Source: Candidatus Poribacteria bacterium
Lineage (GTDB): Bacteria; Poribacteria; WGA-4E; WGA-3G
Direction of reading: 5' to 3'
NCBI GenBank assembly: GCA_022827885.1
Contig: JAJEIP010000008.1
Location: 64,768-128,767 of the forward strand
Length of the DNA stretch: 64,000 nucleotides
Positions 17,908-42,771 of this stretch are shown piece by piece. The translations under genes were made by a program, and so were the position numbers. Every line of letters starts with the position of its first letter. Within the stretch, counting starts at the first letter, position 1. The notes below the pieces were generated by a model. It was not told the origin of the DNA. It made no database searches and saw only the letters and a list, made by a program, of their open reading frames with translations.

Positions 17908-19743
17908 TTATTCGGAGGGAACTTCTGTATACCCTGTCGGCAACGGCTTTCCTGCAACGAGGGCAGCTTTCAGCGGACGGACGTGTCGGCAACTGCCACG
18001 GTGCGTGAAGCCAGGACAATCACACGTTACATCTACACCGACAACTTCCAGCGTATAAAATTTGTCCTTTTGCGAAGAACTTTCGGCGCGGTAGACGGTG
18101 CGCTCGGGACCCGCCAGCACTTGGGCTAAAGTGCGGATGGCTTCTTTGGAATAGGGACGCAACTGCGCACGCGTGGCTTCTTCGAGATGCGAGGCGTTCT
18201 CTTCAAAGTAGGCATCGCTTGCTTGTTGGAGAACAGTGAGCAACTGGGGTTCTTCGACTGTCGCAGCATGCACAGAGAGTGCATTCATCATCCGCTTGAG
18301 TTCGCTGAGCACATCAGGTTGGAGCGCGCCATCCTCACTGGGAATCAACACTGTGCCTTCAACAAGGGCATCCATCAACGCGGCTTTCGTCTCCAACACA
18401 GTCTGAACGAATTCGTCTACCGTGCCGCGCGCGATCATATAAGTGACATTAACGGTCCCCGTCTGTCCAATGCGATAGGCACGATCCTCTGCCTGCCAAT
18501 GGTTCGCTGGCACCCAATCTAAGTCATTGAAGACGACCTGCCGACCCGCAGTCAGATTGATGCCGACACCCGCGACGTGCATATTGGCGATGAAAAGTTT
18601 GATGTTTTCATCGTTCTGAAACTGATCCACTCGCTCCTGCCGTGCCTCGGCGGGAACTTCCCCAGAGACGAAAACTGATCGGTCACCGAAATGTTTGTGG
18701 AACCGTTCCAGCGTATTGAGGAACGCCGTGAAAAGAATGACCTTCTCCCCTTGTTCCAAGGCGTTTTCGACAAACTTGATGGTGTGTCGGCACTTGGCGA
18801 ACGCGAGTTTTCGACGGGCTGTCGTTAACCTGCCAACCGCTTGTCGGCGTTCCGAATTTTCCGAGGCATCTTCAAGCGTCCCAACGGATTCCGGCGCGTC
18901 AAACTTCGTTAGGAACTCGCGGACGGCGTTGTTGAAATGCTGGATTGCGTAAGGATGGAGCTCAACGTCCAACCACGTCCGGAATTTGGGGGGCAGGTCC
19001 AACACCTCATTTTTGGTGCGCCGCAGCATCACACCGTGGAGTTGGACGGTCAATTCCTCAATATTGCTCGCGCCATCTGCGACTAACCCGAAGTCACCCT
19101 GATAGGCATCGCAGTACCGTTTGGCGAAACTGAGAAAACTCTTGCCGAGCGGGTGATCCACCAATTGTAAAATAGGGAAAAGGTCCCGAGGTCGGTTCGT
19201 CATCGGGGTTCCCGTTAACGCGTGGACGATCGGTTGACGTTGAAGTGCTTTGACGAGTTTCGCGGCGTTTCGACTGCGTTGGCTCTGGTGGTTTTTTAAA
19301 TAATGCGCTTCGTCAAAGACAATGCCTTTCCATTCAAACGTGAGCAGCGTTTTAAGGTGTTTGCCGAGGATCTCATAGTTGATGATCACCCAATCACGGA
19401 AGTCGGTTGATGGGAGGGGACTGGGACCCACGATGACGGGGTCAGCCATGGGGAGCACATATTCTATTTCACGTACCCAATTCCGTTTAACAGAGGCGGG
19501 ACATATCACGAGATAGGGACCCTCGGCTTCTGCTTCAACCATTGCGATGATGGACTGTCGGGTTTTGCCAAGCCCCATATCGTCGGCGAGGAGTGCCCGT
19601 CGGCGACCAAGCAGGAAGGCGACCCCCTCTATTTGATGTGGATAGAGCCCTTCGGCAATCTCTTCGGCACGTGTTTTAATTTTATCTTGCGGAGGCAGGA
19701 CGTGGTTTGTGATTTGACGGTTTTCGCTCAAGATCCCCTCCAC
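17908..19743 (-). CDS. SNF2-family helicase with SWIM zinc finger
   Basis: 611 residues. The SWI2/SNF2 ATPase has D-M-G-L-G-K-T (55-61, Walker A), D-E-A-H (144-147), A-L-T-G-T-P-M, then a helicase C lobe with V-I-L-F-T-A-F, G-V-G-I-N-L-T-A and Q-A-E-D-R-A-Y-R-I-G-Q. The order and motifs are nearest to SMARCAL1/HepA-like annealing helicases. The C-terminus (about 575-592) is a SWIM finger, C-D-C-P-G-F-x-x-x-G-S-C-R-H-V, a zinc and nucleic-acid binding module. Predicted ATP-driven DNA remodelling. It starts 17 nt after the VWA gene and shares an operon with two envelope-type proteins, an unusual mix. Confidence 0.9.
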   Translation of the reverse strand: MEGILSENRQITNHVLPPQDKIKTRAEEIAEGLYPHQIEGVAFLLGRRRALLADDMGLGKTRQSIIAMVEAEAEGPYLVICPASVKRNWVREIEYVLPMADPVIVGPSPLPSTDFRDWVIINYEILGKHLKTLLTFEWKGIVFDEAHYLKNHQSQRSRNAAKLVKALQRQPIVHALTGTPMTNRPRDLFPILQLVDHPLGKSFLSFAKRYCDAYQGDFGLVADGASNIEELTVQLHGVMLRRTKNEVLDLPPKFRTWLDVELHPYAIQHFNNAVREFLTKFDAPESVGTLEDASENSERRQAVGRLTTARRKLAFAKCRHTIKFVENALEQGEKVILFTAFLNTLERFHKHFGDRSVFVSGEVPAEARQERVDQFQNDENIKLFIANMHVAGVGINLTAGRQVVFNDLDWVPANHWQAEDRAYRIGQTGTVNVTYMIARGTVDEFVQTVLETKAALMDALVEGTVLIPSEDGALQPDVLSELKRMMNALSVHAATVEEPQLLTVLQQASDAYFEENASHLEEATRAQLRPYSKEAIRTLAQVLAGPERTVYRAESSSQKDKFYTLEVVGVDVTCDCPGFTHRGSCRHVRPLKAALVAGKPLPTGYTEVPSE

Positions 19744-33187: not shown

Positions 33188-35662
33188 ATGAAACCCAGGT
33201 TTAACTTTGTAACAACATTCCTTGTTGCATTTTCCATCTGTCTCGCCTTCCAATTGACAGCCGCGAGTGAGATGGAGCAGCCTGCGAGCGCAGAAGTTCC
33301 AATGGTGCAAGCGTTGAAGGTTCATCCTGAGTCCCTGACATTGGAGCATGCACGTGACGGTAGACGGGTGCTTGTGTCAGGAAAAACGAAAAGTGGTATG
33401 TATGTAGACGTAACACCTTATGCCACACTGACCCCCACCACCGCAGGGGTGAAGGTATATGAAGATGGTTATATCTTCCCGATGGCGGTTGGCACAACAA
33501 AAATTAAGGTGACGGTTAAAGGGGTCAGCACTGAATTGCCCGTGACCGTTAAAAGCATGGATGCACCCCCTGTCAGCTTCGTGCGAGATGTTATGCCGCT
33601 CTTGAGCCATGCTGGGTGTAATAACGGCACATGTCACGGTGCAGCAAAGGGCAAAAATGGGTTCAAACTCTCACTCCGTGGCTACGACCCCGATTTCGAT
33701 TATGAACTCTTGATTGAGGATATATCCGGACGGCGGTTCAACCGAGCATTTCCCGAACAGAGTCTGATGTTGCTAAAACCGACATCAGAGGTGCCGCATA
33801 AAGGCGGACAGGTCATCGTTCCTGGAGATCGGGATTATGAAATTATCCATCAATGGATAGCGGAAGGTGCTATTCCTGACGTTCACACCACAAAACGCGT
33901 CGAAAGGTTGGAGGTCATACCAGATTCGGCTGAACTCGCAGTGCCGGGTATGAAGCAACAACTCATAGTGATCGCACACTATCCTGACGGCACAACACGG
34001 GATGTCACCCGTGAAGCGAAATTCACAAGCAGCCTCAATGAGGTGGCAAAGGTCACAGACAACGGTGTGGTAACCGCAGAACGCCGCGGCGAAACGGCGA
34101 TCCTCACCCGATATGAAGGTGCCTATAGCACGAACGGCATCATCGTTATGGGCGACAGGAGCGGTTACAAGTGGGTCAAAACCGCTGAATACAACTACAT
34201 TGATACGCACGTTCACAATAAACTGAAGCGGATGAAAATCCTACCTTCTGAACTCTGCACAGATGAAGAGTTTGTCCGACGCATCTATTTCGATTTAACA
34301 GGGCTCCCACCGACGCCAGCACAGGTGCGGAGTTTCTTGACCGATACCACAGCCTCTAAAGCCAAACGGGAAAAACTCATTGATGCCCTCGTTGAGACCT
34401 CAGAGTTCATTGACCACTGGACGCATAAATGGGGGGATCTGTTGCAGTCTAACCGTAAATTTCTCGGTGAGCGTGGGATCTGGCTCTTCCAGCAATGGAT
34501 CCATCAAGCCATTGCCGAGAATCGTCCGTATGACGAGTTTGTGCGAGAGCTGATTACCGCAACCGGTAGCACTTACACGAATCCCGCAGCGAACTATTTC
34601 CGCGTTTCCCGTGAATACACGGCTGCAGTGGAAAATACGACGCAACTTTTCTTAGGGGTTCGATTCTCATGCAACAAATGCCATGACCATCCGTTTGAAA
34701 AATGGACGCAAAACCAGTACTATGAACTCGGGGCATTCTTCGCGGATGTTAAAGTCAAACCGGGTCAGCTTCCCGGCGATGAGGTCGTCTACGCTAATTA
34801 CAGTCCAGAGCCTGTAAAACACCCCCGGACGTTAGCAGTGGTTGAACCCTCAGTCCCGTTCGGAGAGGTCGCAGCGGAAACAGACGACAAACGCGAAATG
34901 CTTGCAGCGTGGCTCACCGATGAAGAGAATCCGATGTTTGCTCGGGCAGGTGTGAACCGCATCTGGAGCTACTTCATGGGACGCGGAATCATCGAACCCG
35001 TGGACGATATCCGCACAAGTAATCCACCCACTAACCCCGAATTGCTTGACGCATTGACAAAGGATTTCGTGGACAGCGGGTTTGACATGAAACATATCAT
35101 GAAGACAATCACACGTTCCCGAACCTACCAGCAGAGCATCACAACGAATAAGTGGAACAAGACGGATACGATCAACTTTTCGCACGCAGCTGCCAGACGT
35201 TTGACGGCAGAACAGTTGTTGGATGCGATTGGGATCGCGACAGGAAGCCGACCACGGTTTGAAGAGATGCCGAAAAAATTCCGGGCAGTGCAGTTGCCAG
35301 ACAGCAAGGTCAAAGATGACGGATTCTTGAAGTTGTTTGGCAGACCTGAGCGCGAAACTTCGTGTGAATGTGAACGGACCACCGAGGTCAGCCTCGCACA
35401 CGCAATGAACCTTATTAATGGACCGACGGTTGCAGAGTCCCTCATCGATCCTGAAGGACGTATTGCACAACTCATCAAAACGAATCATGATGACCGAGTT
35501 CTCGTCGAGGAACTCTATCTCGCAACGCTTTCTCGGTTACCGGAGAAGAACGAATACGCAGTAGCGATTGAACACCTTGCGAATGCTGAATCTAAGGAAG
35601 AAGGTGCGCAAGACTTGTTGTGGGCACTCATTAACAGCCCCGCTTTCTTATTCAATCGTTAA
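33188..35662 (+). CDS. cytochrome-like DUF1549/DUF1553 protein with Ig-like domain
   Basis: 824 residues. Signal peptide to about 27. A Big2-like Ig domain follows (about 38-120), then a PSCyt-type heme motif G-C-N-N-G-T-C-H, then a second Ig-like unit, then DUF1549 (T-D-E-E-F-V-R-R-I-Y-F-D-L-T-G-L-P-P-T, with C-N-K-C-H-D-H-P-F) and DUF1553 (M-F-A-R-A-G-V-N-R-I-W to the end). This architecture is abundant in planctomycetes and relatives and always sits beside a DUF1501 protein, as here (37-nt gap). Periplasmic; the biochemical role is not established. Confidence 0.9.
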   Translation: MKPRFNFVTTFLVAFSICLAFQLTAASEMEQPASAEVPMVQALKVHPESLTLEHARDGRRVLVSGKTKSGMYVDVTPYATLTPTTAGVKVYEDGYIFPMAVGTTKIKVTVKGVSTELPVTVKSMDAPPVSFVRDVMPLLSHAGCNNGTCHGAAKGKNGFKLSLRGYDPDFDYELLIEDISGRRFNRAFPEQSLMLLKPTSEVPHKGGQVIVPGDRDYEIIHQWIAEGAIPDVHTTKRVERLEVIPDSAELAVPGMKQQLIVIAHYPDGTTRDVTREAKFTSSLNEVAKVTDNGVVTAERRGETAILTRYEGAYSTNGIIVMGDRSGYKWVKTAEYNYIDTHVHNKLKRMKILPSELCTDEEFVRRIYFDLTGLPPTPAQVRSFLTDTTASKAKREKLIDALVETSEFIDHWTHKWGDLLQSNRKFLGERGIWLFQQWIHQAIAENRPYDEFVRELITATGSTYTNPAANYFRVSREYTAAVENTTQLFLGVRFSCNKCHDHPFEKWTQNQYYELGAFFADVKVKPGQLPGDEVVYANYSPEPVKHPRTLAVVEPSVPFGEVAAETDDKREMLAAWLTDEENPMFARAGVNRIWSYFMGRGIIEPVDDIRTSNPPTNPELLDALTKDFVDSGFDMKHIMKTITRSRTYQQSITTNKWNKTDTINFSHAAARRLTAEQLLDAIGIATGSRPRFEEMPKKFRAVQLPDSKVKDDGFLKLFGRPERETSCECERTTEVSLAHAMNLINGPTVAESLIDPEGRIAQLIKTNHDDRVLVEELYLATLSRLPEKNEYAVAIEHLANAESKEEGAQDLLWALINSPAFLFNR

Positions 35663-35699
35663 TAGTTTTCAGTTAACCAACAGATGGAGGAAACAATCG

Positions 35700-37145
35700 A
35701 TGTTATCGTTACCACAACTACCCGGACGTTTATGTGACGGGTTCTCACGTCGTGAATTTCTACGTGTCGGTGGTGCGGCGATGCTCGGCATTAGTTTGCC
35801 ACAGGTATTGTCACTCCAAGCCAACGCGAATACAACGGTTGACCCCGCCAAGCCGCTCAACGGATGGGGGAAAGCCAACTCGGTCATCCTTCTTTTCTTA
35901 CAAGGCGGTCCGAGCCACCTTGACATCTGGGATCCGAAACCGGAAGCGCCGTCGAATATCCGCGGTGAATTCAATCCGATCCCGACTAATGTGCCAGGAA
36001 TCCAGTTGTCTGAAACGATGCCGCGCTTGGCACAACAGATGGATAAAGCTTGTCTTATCCGTTCCGTAAGTTACACACCGGCAGGACTGTTCAACCATAC
36101 CGCTGCGATGTACCAAATGGTAACCGGTGAAACACCGGACAAGGTCGCGCCCTCGGGACAGCTCGATCCACCCTCTCCAGCCGACCATCCGAATGCCGCA
36201 TCGCATATCGCAAACTATCGTCCACCGGATGAACCGATGCTCGCGGCAGTCCAACTTCCGCGTCCGATGCAAGAGAGTAACATCATCGGTAAAGGTGGAA
36301 ACGCTGGTTTCCTTGGCAGGGCATACGATCCGTATTTCCTCTTCCAAGATCCGAATCAGGAGATTAACCTCGACGATTTGAGTTTGCGTCCAGAGGTGCC
36401 GCCGGTGCGTTTGAAACGTCGGAAAAACCTCCTTGAGACGATTAACAAAGGGATGCCCGAAATTGATAAGGTCGCAGATTCCTACGCTTTGAATGAGTAT
36501 TATGAGAAGGCGTATAATCTGATCCTGTCGCAGCGGGCACGCAACGCGTTCGACTTGTCTCAAGAACCCGATGAAGTGCGCGATAAGTACGGTAGACACA
36601 CGTTTGGACAGAGCGCGCTCCTCGCTCGCCGTTTGGTGGAAGCAGGCACCCGTTTCGTGCAGGTGAACTGGCCCTCTGTTGCTAACGGAGATCCGAATAC
36701 CACGGCATGGGATACGCACGCAACGAACTTCGGTCCGTTGAAGAACCTCCACTGCCCGAAGTTAGACAGTGCCGTCTCCTCACTGCTGGAAGACTTGGAT
36801 CAACGTGGTATGTTGGAGGATACGCTCGTCTTAACGATCGGTGAATTCGGCCGCTCGCCACGGATGGGTATTAGCACCTCCGGTAACAGCAACGCGCCTG
36901 ATGGACGCGATCACTGGCCCTATTGTTACACGGGTCTGATTGCTGGTGCTGGTGTTCAAGGTGGACAGGTCTACGGGAAATCCGATGCAACAGGCTCAAC
37001 GCCGCTTGAGAACCCGGTGCATCCGACAGACATCCTCGCCACGGTCTACCATACACTCGGTATCGATCCGCACACCATCGTGTACAACCACTTGGATCAG
37101 CCACGCGAGTTGGTGAAAGGCGAACCGATTGCTGGAATATTTTAA
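35700..37145 (+). CDS. DUF1501 protein with Tat signal
   Basis: 481 residues from ATG 35700 (GGAGG upstream); the frame runs back to 35568 inside the DUF1553 gene, which is not a real start. S-R-R-E-F-L-R-V-G-G (about 16-25) is a twin-arginine signal. The DUF1501 domain has the phosphatase/sulfatase-like fold: F-L-Q-G-G-P-S-H-L-D-I-W-D near the start and L-T-I-G-E-F-G-R-S-P and G-R-D-H-W-P near the end. Exported folded. It pairs with the upstream DUF1549/1553 protein. A 90-nt inverted repeat separates it from the next gene. Confidence 0.9.
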   Translation: MLSLPQLPGRLCDGFSRREFLRVGGAAMLGISLPQVLSLQANANTTVDPAKPLNGWGKANSVILLFLQGGPSHLDIWDPKPEAPSNIRGEFNPIPTNVPGIQLSETMPRLAQQMDKACLIRSVSYTPAGLFNHTAAMYQMVTGETPDKVAPSGQLDPPSPADHPNAASHIANYRPPDEPMLAAVQLPRPMQESNIIGKGGNAGFLGRAYDPYFLFQDPNQEINLDDLSLRPEVPPVRLKRRKNLLETINKGMPEIDKVADSYALNEYYEKAYNLILSQRARNAFDLSQEPDEVRDKYGRHTFGQSALLARRLVEAGTRFVQVNWPSVANGDPNTTAWDTHATNFGPLKNLHCPKLDSAVSSLLEDLDQRGMLEDTLVLTIGEFGRSPRMGISTSGNSNAPDGRDHWPYCYTGLIAGAGVQGGQVYGKSDATGSTPLENPVHPTDILATVYHTLGIDPHTIVYNHLDQPRELVKGEPIAGIF

Positions 37146-37147
37146 TT

Positions 37148-37238
37148 GACTATCAGTTATCAGTTAACGGTTATCGGTGGCAAGAGGTTTTGTTAAACGA
37201 AAGCCTCTTACCGATAACCGACGACTGACACCCGACAC
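37148..37238. repeat. imperfect inverted repeat (TATCAGTTATCAG ... CCGATAACCGACGACTG)
   Basis: Same design as 11697-11767: ACTATCAGTTATCAGTTAAC, GGTTATCGG and AAGAGG on the left, CCTCTTACCGATAACCGACG on the right, with a TTTTGTTAAACGAAAG loop. Confidence 0.75.
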
Positions 37239-37266: not shown

Positions 37267-38895
37267 ATGAACGCAAATCCCAACAAAATCGCGCTTAATA
37301 TTGATGGGGACACCAAGGTTTCCATCAAAGGCTTCATCGCCCCGATTGAACATACCCAATCTAACCACCACGTGGCGTTTGAATGGGACGAGTTGGTGAA
37401 TCTCCGAGTTGCGGTGCCAGAAAAGGCGTATTCGGCATCCGTTTTTCGCGCATTCCTCCCAGACGGATCGGTGTCTGTTGGAGATCTGTGGCAGATTGAA
37501 GAAATGGGTGCCCTTGAACTGTTACGGCAACTTCACCCGAAACCGAATTTGGACATGCGCGATTATGGGGATCCTGGGTTGTGGGCATGCCTGCGTGCTT
37601 ATACTGATGAATTCGCGGACATTGTGATTCGCATTCACACAGAATTCAAGTTAGGTGATGGTTGGTTCACGCCTTCACAGTTTACGGGACATCTCGTTAT
37701 TAACCGTTCTGAAGAGACCGTCGCGTTCTTTCAGATGCGTGTGCCGGAGGGTCCCGTGAACTTTGAGGTTGGCTGGGAGGACGAAGACAGTTGGTGTGAC
37801 TCTAACTGGATTGCGGATACTGGTTTTTGCGCGCAAATGGAACTCCGTGCTGGTAACGAAGACGTTCTGCAAAACATCACGACGCGAGCAAGCAATTCCA
37901 CTGTCATTACACAGGAAGAAGCCGAGCGTGCGCTAAACTGCCAGTTTTACAAATCGGAGCAGATCAATTGGGTCCCGATGGAGGCGGCGTTGGAATTAGC
38001 ACAAGCACAGCAGAAACCGATTCATGCCATTTCCATAGATGGTCCCTTGGCGGACGAAACTTGCTGAGGGAGTGGCAAAAGCCTGAGGGCAGGTGCTCTC
38101 TCTGATGAACAAAACATAGAATTCTTGAACGAACATTTTATCAACACATGGGTGTCCAATGTTGCCTTCGGACGCACGCCAGATAAGTGCGCCTACCTTG
38201 CACAGAGGATCCAGCAAGGTTTCAAGGCGGTTGACACAACACACCCGTTGGCACAAGCGATCATAAGTGGATGGCAGCTACACTCACCAGTGGATTCTCT
38301 GGTTATCTCGCCTGAACTTGAAGTGATGGGTAGGCAAGATGCCAACCGGCTCTTCGGAGATAGCAGAGATCGGGGCATCTCCCAAGTGGAGGGATACCAT
38401 CTGTTTTTATCGGAAGCCTTATCAGGAAATCGCCCCGGTTTGGATAGAATTGTCCTCACCCGTGCGTGTCCCTCAATGGAGATAATGGACACTTTTCAGA
38501 CCCCTACGGTCCCGCATCAAGACTATACCATCGTAGAGGTTGATACCACGGCGTTTGAAGGCGGTACACTTACGCTGGATATCGGTGTCGGTCGAGGTAA
38601 GGCAGCAGGAACTTTCTACCTGTTTGATGGTAACCAAAACCTCCCGACAGAAAAAGCACCTGAAGGCGTACCCGCCTCCGTCTGGGAGGGCCAGCACGGC
38701 GACGCTTATGTGGAAGCTCTCGGTGCCCTCGCGATAGAATGGTATATTGGTCCCGAAAAAATGAAAAAAATCACGTACCCTTTTGACCAAGGTAAGTTGT
38801 TTCGGTTGTGCGTTACCGGGAGTCGGTACAATGTGAAAGGGAGCCGCAACGCTTTCAGCCTCAACATCTCTATAGAAGAGAGTGACAACCGATAA
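37267..38895 (+). CDS. SelN-like selenoprotein (in-frame TGA = Sec267)
   Basis: 542 residues if TGA 38065-38067 is read as selenocysteine; otherwise a 266-residue protein and an orphan frame without start. Around the TGA: A-D-E-T-C266-U267-G-S-G-K-S-L-R-A-G, then L-N-E-H-F-I-N-T-W-V. Vertebrate selenoprotein N has S-C-U-G-S-G-R-T-L-R-E and L-N-E-S-F-x-S-T-W in the same order, so the redox centre and its flank match. The N-terminal 250 residues and the C-terminal half are not recognised. No signal peptide. Probably a thioredoxin-like thiol/selenol enzyme. The hairpin at 38085-38100 is the SECIS candidate. The ribosome site is weak. Fourth-gene neighbour: PPC protein, 28 nt on. Confidence 0.87.
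38065..38100 (+). promoter_or_regulatory. UGA codon with bacterial SECIS-like hairpin
   Basis: TGA 38065-38067. GAGGGC (38085-38090), loop AGGT, GCTCTC (38095-38100), 6 bp with one G-U pair. The loop contains GU and starts 23 nt after the TGA, one nt from the spacing of the other site. Confidence 0.78.
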
Positions 38896-38923
38896 CTGAC
38901 AACCACGAATGAGGTAATTAAAA

Positions 38924-41500
38924 ATGCCGAATACGCTATTTCGGAAACAGAGAAGAGAAGATTGGAAGATTAGAATATTAGAAGATTGGGGATTCCTATC
39001 CTTCCCTTCCTCCGTTCTTCCATCCTTTCTCGTCATAGCGATCTCTCTCCTAACGATTGGTTCCGCATACGCCCAGGTTCAACCGACCTTGACGACTGTC
39101 TTCCCTCAAGGGGGTCAACAGGGACGCAGCGTAGAAGTTACACTCACAGGCACGAATCTCGGCACAGCAACGGCGGTGTGGTTCAGTGGGAAAGGTATCA
39201 CCTCGGAAATTAAAGAAAAAACCGGGCAAGCCGCCGTTGTTTTCAACGGTGTTGGTGTCTCTGGAAGTATTCCGAGCGACGCGCAGTTGGTCGCAGTGCT
39301 GACGATTGCCAGTGACGCACCGTTAGGTATCCAAGAGATACGCGCTGTCACACCTTATGGTGTTTCCAATGCAGGTAGCTTCGTCGTTGGAAATCTGCGA
39401 GAAATCGTTGAAGAAGAGACAACGGCATCGGCGTCGGAAACCGCGTCTACAATGGAAACCGACTGGCTCGCGCTGCCGGTTACCGTGAACGGCACAATCG
39501 CTTCAATCGACGATGAAGACAGTTTCACCTTTCAATTGAAGAAGGATACGCGACTTATCTGTGAAGTGGCAGCACAGCAAATCGGCTCGTTGCTGGATTC
39601 CTATCTCGTTCTCCGAGATGCTAATGGGACTGAGGTCGCCAACAGCGGTCTTGGCAACGCCTTTGACTCCGTTTTGGATTACACAGCACTTGAAACCGGG
39701 AAATACACGCTCCACATCCGCGATATTCGTTATAAAGGCGGAGATGGATACGCCTATCGTTTGAGCATCGGGGAATTACCGTATCTTGAGACGATCTTTC
39801 CGCTTGGTGGACAACGCGGCACTGAGAATACAGTCACTGTCACTGGCGCGAACCTTGAAACGGTAGAATCCATACAAGTTTCAATAGGTGCTGAAACACC
39901 GGCAGGCGAGCAATCCCTGCGGGTCCAGACGCCCTCTGGATTGGCTACCAATTCACATCCGTTTGCTATCGGCAATTGGGTGGAAATGGCAGAGACTGAA
40001 CCGAATAACACAACGGGAAATGCGAACGCCGTAACGACACCGATAACACTCAACGGGAAAATCGACAAATCCGGTGATGTTGACTATTTTTCGTTTGAGA
40101 TTGAAGAACCGCAACTCCTCGTTTTTGAGGTAGAGGCAAATAAACTGTCATCAAACCTCGATGCCTTGCTTACGCTTTACGGACCGGGCAAATCGATGGA
40201 AGCCTCGGAAGAAATGGCATGGAACGACAACAAAGAACAGGTCTTGATGGTAAACGATGACGGCATCACTGCCGATGCCCGTATTGACTGGAATTTTGAA
40301 GAAGCTGGAAAGTACTCTGTCGCTATTCGAGATCTGAACGATCAAGGCGGTGAGACCTACCCGTACCGATTAAACATCCGTCCGTTGGAACCAGACTGCG
40401 AACTCAGTGTAGTTGCACTTGACCTTCGGAATCAAGCGACTGCTATGGATAACCCGCGCGTCAGCAGAGGCAGCAGCGTTACGTTGCAGGTCGATGTTAC
40501 GCGTCTCGACTTATTTGATGGTCCAATTCGCCTACTTTGCCCAGACCTTCCGAAAACATTCGATGTAAGTCCGACCATCGTTGGCGCAAACCAAGCGCGG
40601 GCAATGCTTACCATAACGGCGCCATCGGATGCTTCACTCGGACTCATGCCACTCTCTATCGTTGGGGTTTGTGCTGTGCGGGGGCGCCAGATAGAGCGCG
40701 TTGCCACGCCGTCTCCAATCCTGCTTACCGTGATGGATGCCCCGGAATTCACGCTGACGCTCGCAGAGATCGGCTTAAATGCAATCCACAACAAGACGGT
40801 TGATCTTCATGTGACGGCAACACGACGCGCTGATTTCGTCGGTCCGATCGCGTTATCGGTATCAGGACTGCCAAATCGCGTTTCGGCACTTCCTGACCCT
40901 GTTACCGACAAACCTGTCACTTTTGCAGAAGGTGAAACAGAAGCAATGGTTTCGGTTAAAGCCGGGACTTTTGAACGGAGAGAGGAATTTTCCGTCCTGC
41001 CGACACCCGGTACCAGTTATATTTCAGTCACCGGAACGGCGACTGTCAATGGCGAGACGGTCAAACAGTCGACCCCTGCTATCCCTTTGACGATCGTCGA
41101 GGCACCCTTTATTGTAACGGTTGAGCCGTTGCGCTTTAGCATTGTCTTCCCAGCAACGGAAACTTCAGGGTCTGAAGTCGAGACGGTGGCACTCACAGCA
41201 GACACCGAAACAGCAAAAACCGAAGATTCGCAAACAAAGGAAGCGATATTGACGTTAACGATCGTCCGGCAAGGGGGCTTCACAGATGAAATCACACTGA
41301 CACCGATCGATGTCCCAGAAGGCTTCACCACGGAAGCGGTTACCATCCCGGCAGATGAGACGGAGGCAAAAGTCCCACTCAAGGCTCTCAGCTCCTTAAT
41401 GCCGGAGACATACGAGTTTAGATTCCGAGGGTCTGTGACGATTAACGACAAACCCTTTGAACAGGATAGTCCTATCGTCAAGGTAAAGATTATTCATTAA
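38924..41500 (+). CDS. secreted pre-peptidase (PPC)/Ig-like domain protein
   Basis: 858 residues. The hydrophobic signal is late (about 30-51, ends A-Y-A-Q), because the first 30 residues (R-K-Q-R-R-E-D-W-K-I-R-I-L-E-D-W) are encoded by a run of GAAGATT(G/A)G-like units. The body has IPT-like openings (L-T-T-V-F-P-Q-G-G-Q-Q-G), two PPC-type domains (D-E-D-S-F-T-F-Q-L and S-G-D-V-D-Y-F-S-F-E-I, with Y-T-L-H-I-R-D and Y-S-V-A-I-R-D), then several beta-sandwich domains. PPC proteins accompany DUF1549/1501 pairs in planctomycetes. Last gene of the run starting at 33188. Exported; binding role likely. Confidence 0.82.
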   Translation: MPNTLFRKQRREDWKIRILEDWGFLSFPSSVLPSFLVIAISLLTIGSAYAQVQPTLTTVFPQGGQQGRSVEVTLTGTNLGTATAVWFSGKGITSEIKEKTGQAAVVFNGVGVSGSIPSDAQLVAVLTIASDAPLGIQEIRAVTPYGVSNAGSFVVGNLREIVEEETTASASETASTMETDWLALPVTVNGTIASIDDEDSFTFQLKKDTRLICEVAAQQIGSLLDSYLVLRDANGTEVANSGLGNAFDSVLDYTALETGKYTLHIRDIRYKGGDGYAYRLSIGELPYLETIFPLGGQRGTENTVTVTGANLETVESIQVSIGAETPAGEQSLRVQTPSGLATNSHPFAIGNWVEMAETEPNNTTGNANAVTTPITLNGKIDKSGDVDYFSFEIEEPQLLVFEVEANKLSSNLDALLTLYGPGKSMEASEEMAWNDNKEQVLMVNDDGITADARIDWNFEEAGKYSVAIRDLNDQGGETYPYRLNIRPLEPDCELSVVALDLRNQATAMDNPRVSRGSSVTLQVDVTRLDLFDGPIRLLCPDLPKTFDVSPTIVGANQARAMLTITAPSDASLGLMPLSIVGVCAVRGRQIERVATPSPILLTVMDAPEFTLTLAEIGLNAIHNKTVDLHVTATRRADFVGPIALSVSGLPNRVSALPDPVTDKPVTFAEGETEAMVSVKAGTFERREEFSVLPTPGTSYISVTGTATVNGETVKQSTPAIPLTIVEAPFIVTVEPLRFSIVFPATETSGSEVETVALTADTETAKTEDSQTKEAILTLTIVRQGGFTDEITLTPIDVPEGFTTEAVTIPADETEAKVPLKALSSLMPETYEFRFRGSVTINDKPFEQDSPIVKVKIIH

Positions 41501-42771
<1,271 letters not shown>

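Follow-up and report, generated by a model that had tools for sequence, protein, structure and literature searches.

A selenoprotein N-like gene of Candidatus Poribacteria with an in-frame TGA predicted to encode selenocysteine

A gene in a 64,000-nt stretch of Candidatus Poribacteria DNA (the window, in what follows) very probably encodes a bacterial homolog of selenoprotein N (SelN) in which an in-frame TGA is read as selenocysteine (Sec) through SelB and a hairpin that follows the codon, and which has a thiol-redox role through a Cys-Sec pair. Sec insertion, the chemistry and any sensing are inferred, and there are no expression or selenium data. The earlier note on this DNA had proposed a bacterial SelN-type selenoprotein, a proposal now supported by the presence of TGA in all relatives, a conserved hairpin, the Sec machinery of the genome and an alignment of some 300 residues with SELENON in which the Sec sites coincide. 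The source assembly (G000; 5.1 Mb, 96.7% complete) has Candidatus Poribacteria as its nearest named relatives.

An open frame across TGA and the hairpin behind it

The frame at 37267-38895 (plus strand, as are all window features given here) has a single interruption, the TGA at 38065-38067, which follows Cys266 in the motif C-U-G-S-G-K. The ORF at 37267-38067 contributes 266 amino acids up to this codon and is continued in frame by 275 sense codons as far as the TAA at 38893-38895, giving a 542-residue protein with Sec as residue 267; orthologs that are 76-84% identical have the same TGA. The open continuation described in the earlier note therefore stands, but its count of 276 codons includes the stop. 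Its reading of the junction (C-U-G-S-G-K-S-L-R, with L-N-E-H-F-I-N-T-W downstream) is exact, the protein having D-E-T-C-U-G-S-G-K-S-L-R at this point, and it was also right that the second part has no start of its own near its beginning: there is no ATG near the beginning of the segment 3' of the TGA, and the first start-like codon is a TTG at 38125, 57 nt downstream in frame, which supplies the Leu that opens the conserved L-N-E-x-F-I-N-T-W. The relatives also conserve the residues that separate this TTG from the TGA.

Of the nine long window ORFs with a TGA at their end, all of which were checked, only the SelN frame stays open over hundreds of codons, if we set aside one ORF that runs straight into the next gene; the rest continue for 2-56 codons. 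Comparison with eight orthologs gave Ka/Ks values of 0.13-0.22 before the TGA and 0.21-0.32 after it, below 0.33 on both sides, showing that coding is conserved under selection in either part of the frame. Finally, with a selection motif that permitted any residue at the Sec position, 217 distinct family sites were collected (consensus x-C-U-G/A-S/T-G-K/R), and every one has TGA at that position (217/217) with Cys directly before it (217/217); no Cys form was seen at the Sec position among them. Hits listed with two TGA codons proved, in those translated, to owe the second to the gene's own terminal stop. From the ORF survey, the Ka/Ks values and the uniformity of the TGA, it is clear that the read-through codon is not there by chance.

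The hairpin, at 38085-38100, has a GAGGGC/GCTCTC stem and an AGGT loop, as the earlier note had it, although the 20 nt then given as its distance from the TGA applies only when counted from the T of that codon; otherwise, 17 nt separate the TGA from the first base of the stem and 23 nt separate it from the loop. We used the published criteria for bacterial SECIS elements (PMC13188914) with a minimum free energy (MFE) cut-off of ≤ -7.5 kcal/mol. Every one of the 171 distinct segments that follow the codon in the main set meets the bSECIS model, and 167 of them also pass the MFE cut-off; the window hairpin has an MFE of -12.4 and the spacing of 23 nt. When synonymous codons were resampled with the protein kept (20 rounds), only 46% of segments met the model (maximum 54%), and 23% did so with the MFE cut-off (maximum 30%). 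The codons themselves are also biased: Arg at +7 is always encoded by AGG or AGA (171/171 segments), whereas AGR accounts for 29% of Arg codons elsewhere in the same genes, and Leu at +11 is CTC in 164/171. Two stem positions show changes on both sides among relatives (G-C to A-T), and in a 13-member subset the second arm of this stem is displaced by 2 nt. In core-type and fusion members the hairpin persists but is built from other pairs, as in GAGAGTGGGTCCACTCTC. The resampling gap, the Arg and Leu codon bias and the two-sided stem changes show that the hairpin is kept as RNA and not as a by-product of the protein; it is consistent with a SelB-dependent signal.

These observations bear directly on whether the TGA could be a real stop, in a pseudogene, through an assembly error or between two separate genes. 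TGA does end several other window genes in the ordinary way, and an in-frame TTG lies within reach downstream, but the same codon recurs at 217 distinct sites in many independent assemblies, both halves of the gene are under selection and the hairpin is conserved at the RNA level, and we consider the chance that this is a stop to be negligible. On TGA conservation, selection on both sides and hairpin conservation, both pseudogene and assembly error were rejected. The two findings that the earlier note had named as fatal to its idea, homologs that keep the stop and lack the second half, and read errors, run counter to the conservation: the residues 3' of the TGA are conserved, with the Ka/Ks values given above, and the TGA recurs across those same assemblies.

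The genome also has what is needed to decode such a codon. selB (C136:16392-18287) is directly followed by the gene for tRNA-Sec (18350-18439, 75 bits), its product carries the Pfam SelB winged helices, and SelA (601 bits) and SelD (360 bits) are encoded in the same genome, so that selA, selB, selC (tRNA-Sec) and selD are all present. An Rfam scan of the 64,000-nt window returned no match; in the genome, the Rfam tRNA-Sec model did give one. SelD is itself a selenoprotein, with a TGA in K-C-A-G-U-A-S-K (L182; C144:60983-61906 of the source genome), where U-A-S-K corresponds to the known UxxK Sec motif. An open frame alone would also allow the TGA to be read as another residue, such as Trp, whether by a suppressor tRNA or because the code has been reassigned. 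Yet the full Sec machinery with tRNA-Sec adjoining selB, the Sec TGA of SelD, the termination of several other long ORFs by TGA and the SelB-type hairpin all speak against this, which we think scarcely credible; a reassigned code was rejected on the machinery, the use of TGA as a stop and the hairpin. Since most relatives across the class have the machinery, including those without SelN, it is likely, by inference, that the machinery is older than the SelN family in the class.

Kinship to selenoprotein N and the predicted fold

SELENON (SelN, SEPN1) is an animal selenoprotein that is found mutated in muscle disease in humans; it was the first selenoprotein to be tied to a human inherited disease, and its reaction is still unsettled. 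The human sequence used here for comparison was a reconstruction (590 residues, with Sec462 as expected) and not a database entry. Besides checks at other known positions, this reconstructed sequence agrees with the published Arg466 (PMC12839072), with Asp80, Met85 and Tyr86 (PMC7474598) and with the codon-315 site. Family members match it in BLASTP with E-values of 1e-25 to 1e-42 at 26-32% identity, and a profile of 27 of them scores 195 bits over human residues 194-518, where the best of 200 shuffled controls reached -0.2 bits. About 300 residues are aligned with the Sec sites superposed, and the aligned stretches on either side include A-C-L-x-A, R-I-H-A-E-F, F-x-P-A-Q-F-T-G and L-N-E-x-F-I-x-T-W; the alignment with SEPN1 and bacterial homologs that had been suggested as a check thus came out in favor of kinship, subject to the reconstructed human sequence. 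The site itself, Cys-Sec-Gly-Ser-Gly-Lys/Arg-x-Leu-Arg, is shared, with Sec and not Cys in both, and the SCUG motif of SELENON (PMC12839072) has its counterpart in the family consensus.

There are also clear differences. A Pfam scan found no EF-hand in the window protein, and the alignment begins past the human EF-hand region. By eye, the window copy has no hydrophobic segment at its start (MNANPNKIALN) and, being bacterial, is not an ER type II transmembrane protein, while some paralogs have a signal-like or lipobox-like N-terminal segment, also judged by eye. The SECIS lies within the coding region in the bacteria and in the 3' UTR in SELENON, and the bacterial family adds a C-terminal beta domain, many copies and fusions to redoxins and ECF sigma factors. 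A tree with the single reconstructed human row resolves two bacterial clades, a core type and a tandem type, with the human sequence on a long branch and the direction of transfer unresolved. This long branch, the identity of only about 30% and the missing EF-hand might suggest that the likeness is a convergence on a thioredoxin-like C-U-G motif in what is nevertheless a Sec protein, but a match of 195 bits that covers residues both before and after the Sec makes this very unlikely. We therefore regard the window gene as a homolog of the SelN domain and not as SELENON in the full sense, an assignment that is strong as far as sequence comparison goes but that rests on a reconstructed human sequence.

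Neither Pfam nor NCBIfam models matched the window protein, and searching the PDB with its sequence gave only chance-level hits (IL-12 beta, best E 0.064; cohesin, 0.54). With the full protein, the Foldseek output was taken up largely by beta-sandwiches that matched the C-terminal domain, and the core was modelled alone. The AlphaFold2 model (pLDDT 87.3, pTM 0.86) and the SELENON profile define a SelN core of residues 1-393 (37267-38445), which comprises an N-terminal mixed beta domain and a Sec-bearing thioredoxin-like domain, the latter placed by Foldseek at about residues 216-385 (37912-38421). The top PDB matches of the core were a DsbH-domain protein (7tkv), DsbH (2ju5), AGR3 (3ph9), ERp19 (1sen) and AGR2 (9i3u), all of them DsbH/AGR/ERp19-type thioredoxins (E 4e-4 to 1e-2, probability 0.99-1.00 for the best). 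Many core-type relatives lack the C-terminal beta-sandwich domain (38446-38892), which recurs on an ECF sigma factor of the same genome.

The catalytic residue is thus predicted to sit in a thioredoxin fold, in the fold class of DsbH, AGR2-AGR3 and ERp19 (TXNDC12), and in the model the Sec follows a strand (252-257) and precedes a helix (271-275). Those proteins use Cys, in CxxC or CxxS, whereas the SelN protein has no CxxC but U-G-S-G with a Cys directly before the Sec; it also differs in having an extra N-terminal beta domain and no Pfam thioredoxin match. We infer from the model, without a residue-level Foldseek alignment, that Sec may stand where CxxC proteins have their nucleophile, Gly replacing the second Cys and the preceding Cys serving as the resolving partner.

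Copies, neighbors and fusions

The profile of the N-terminal core found the family in 65 of 85 Poribacteria genomes, with 1-17 copies each and roughly 450 matches in sum. Among the genomes searched, the family is confined to families f1, f2 and f4 of one Poribacteria order; a search of 387 genomes, in which the same 65 matched, found none in the 302 more distant ones (a sample of bacteria only), and there were no relatives among the plasmids or viral contigs searched. Many copies are arranged in tandem arrays, as in one genome (G032) with eight within about 13 kb, and the source genome has six SelN loci besides that of the window, one of which (on C80) is split by a frameshift. For nearly every known selenoprotein family there are homologs with Cys (PMC12013277); by comparison, the Poribacteria SelN family is Sec-only in the sites collected, multi-copy and partly fused to redoxins and ECF sigma factors.

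The window gene has conserved neighbors: upstream, a PSCyt2 (DUF1549)/PSD1 (DUF1553) protein (33188-35662) and a DUF1501 protein (35568-37145, whose actual start is probably 3' of the listed TTG), both from domain scan and synteny, and downstream a PPC/TIG-domain protein (38924-41500; domain scan and synteny) and what we take from its sequence to be a tgt-like queuine tRNA-ribosyltransferase (41617-42771; synteny). The order DUF1549/DUF1553, DUF1501, SelN, PPC/TIG is kept in 7/7 orthologs with flanks, and tgt comes next in all five whose flank extends that far. The enzyme had been pictured as working beside exported cytochrome-like proteins; the location holds in those seven orthologs, but the neighbors are DUF proteins and not demonstrable cytochromes, no partnership is shown, and the majority of paralogs have other locations. 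No signal peptide is seen by eye in the window protein itself, and none of its neighbors is a redoxin. A repeat like AACCGATAACTGACAACTGA flanks the SelN and PPC/TIG genes (37153-37172, 37209-37228, 38887-38906 and 41501-41527), with five matches in the window at up to three mismatches against 0.02 expected.

Other copies are more revealing of possible partners. One subfamily has an AhpC/TSA-redoxin domain after the SelN core in 6/6 members scanned with Pfam (L165:6403-8286, L168:1898-3913, L169:1972-3852, L170:1956-3476, L176:1837-3648 and L180:1632-3617). Most of these redoxins have Asn or His in place of the first catalytic Cys (W-N-x-F-C or W-H-x-F-C; L176 has an intact W-C-G-F-C), so that not all of the fusions can be explained by a simple dithiol relay. 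The fusion to TlpA/AhpC-TSA-type redoxins in some relatives is reminiscent of other Sec-containing thioredoxin-like proteins of bacteria (Prx-like, UGC TlpA-type, DsbG-like; PMC13188914), with which the family shares bacterial SECIS decoding and a thiol-redox context; it is nevertheless a different family, outside the 119 listed.

It has to be considered that the main role of the family is sensing and not bulk catalysis, with the Sec domain responding, at the membrane or outside, to oxidants or to the thiols of a partner and driving ECF sigma or BlaI/BlaR1-type regulators. The source genome encodes a fusion protein in which a hydrophobic segment links an ECF sigma factor with a SelN domain that contains Sec (Pfam; C64, L008:1501-3570), and copies with the same N-terminus occur in three other genomes (L146, L147 and L148). 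Another ECF sigma factor (L046:7413-8738, on C130) adjoins two SelN paralogs, and its C-terminal part is 38% identical over 145 residues to the C-terminal beta domain of the window protein. ECF sigma-sensor genes precede the SelN copy on C148, and on C123 a BlaI-type repressor, a BlaR1 M56 peptidase fused to a redoxin, two redoxins and SelN follow one another (L048:3254-9818). Most copies, however, including that of the window, have no regulator attached or adjacent, and tandem arrays of up to eight look more like dosage or substrate diversification, and we find sensing as the main role rather unlikely. Two side observations concern these loci: it looks unusual for a sigma factor to carry a selenocysteine domain, and on C148 one ECF sigma factor is fused to a sortilin/BNR-repeat sensor (L049:3702-6671), with a second long gene of similar start between it and the SelN copy.

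Proposed mechanism and implications

We favor a redox enzyme, in part a sensor, that is inferred to use its Cys-Sec pair. During translation, SelB would recognize the hairpin just after the UGA and deliver Sec-tRNA-Sec, and the UGA would be read as selenocysteine to give the full 542-residue protein, as can be inferred from the completeness of the cis and trans apparatus. The product would be a two-domain SelN core with an added C-terminal beta-sandwich, in which, if the model is right, Sec lies beside Cys, close to where a helix begins in a DsbH/AGR2/ERp19-type thioredoxin fold, at the place of the CxxC nucleophile. Its activity would most likely be that of a thiol-disulfide oxidoreductase or thiol peroxidase, with a Cys-Sec selenenylsulfide as an intermediate of the cycle, and the protein may be re-reduced by a redoxin-type partner, which in some relatives is fused or encoded next to it; the recycling, too, is inferred. 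Some copies, those fused to ECF sigma factors, might report redox state to transcription.

SELENON is missing from the 119 prokaryotic selenoprotein families catalogued in 2026 (PMC13188914), and we found no bacterial or Poribacteria SelN in the open-access literature, although an earlier mention in subscription papers is not excluded. Exchange between sponge and symbiont is a live, if untested, idea because sponges have SelN (Aq.SelN; PMC3473315) and because SelA and SelB were reported in most sponge-symbiont bins and as missing from most closely related references (PMC5649159); the limitation of the family to one Poribacteria order and its absence from the distant genomes searched are in keeping with it. 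It is possible, though we offer it tentatively, that SelN crossed between sponge and Poribacteria symbiont in one direction or the other, that Sec was kept while the SECIS switched between 3' UTR and coding region, and that a many-copy, Sec-only expansion with ECF sigma and BlaR-type gene control followed.

A bacterial family that is in part soluble and has fused redoxins offers a direct clue to the role of the SelN domain, as a Cys-Sec thiol-redox partner of redoxins, and the Poribacteria proteins may be producible in Escherichia coli via the SelB route. The expansion of a single selenoprotein family to 1-17 copies per genome in animal symbionts, with no Cys form seen, is unusual, and through the Poribacteria SelN family the question of whether animals and bacteria exchange genes and selenium becomes testable.
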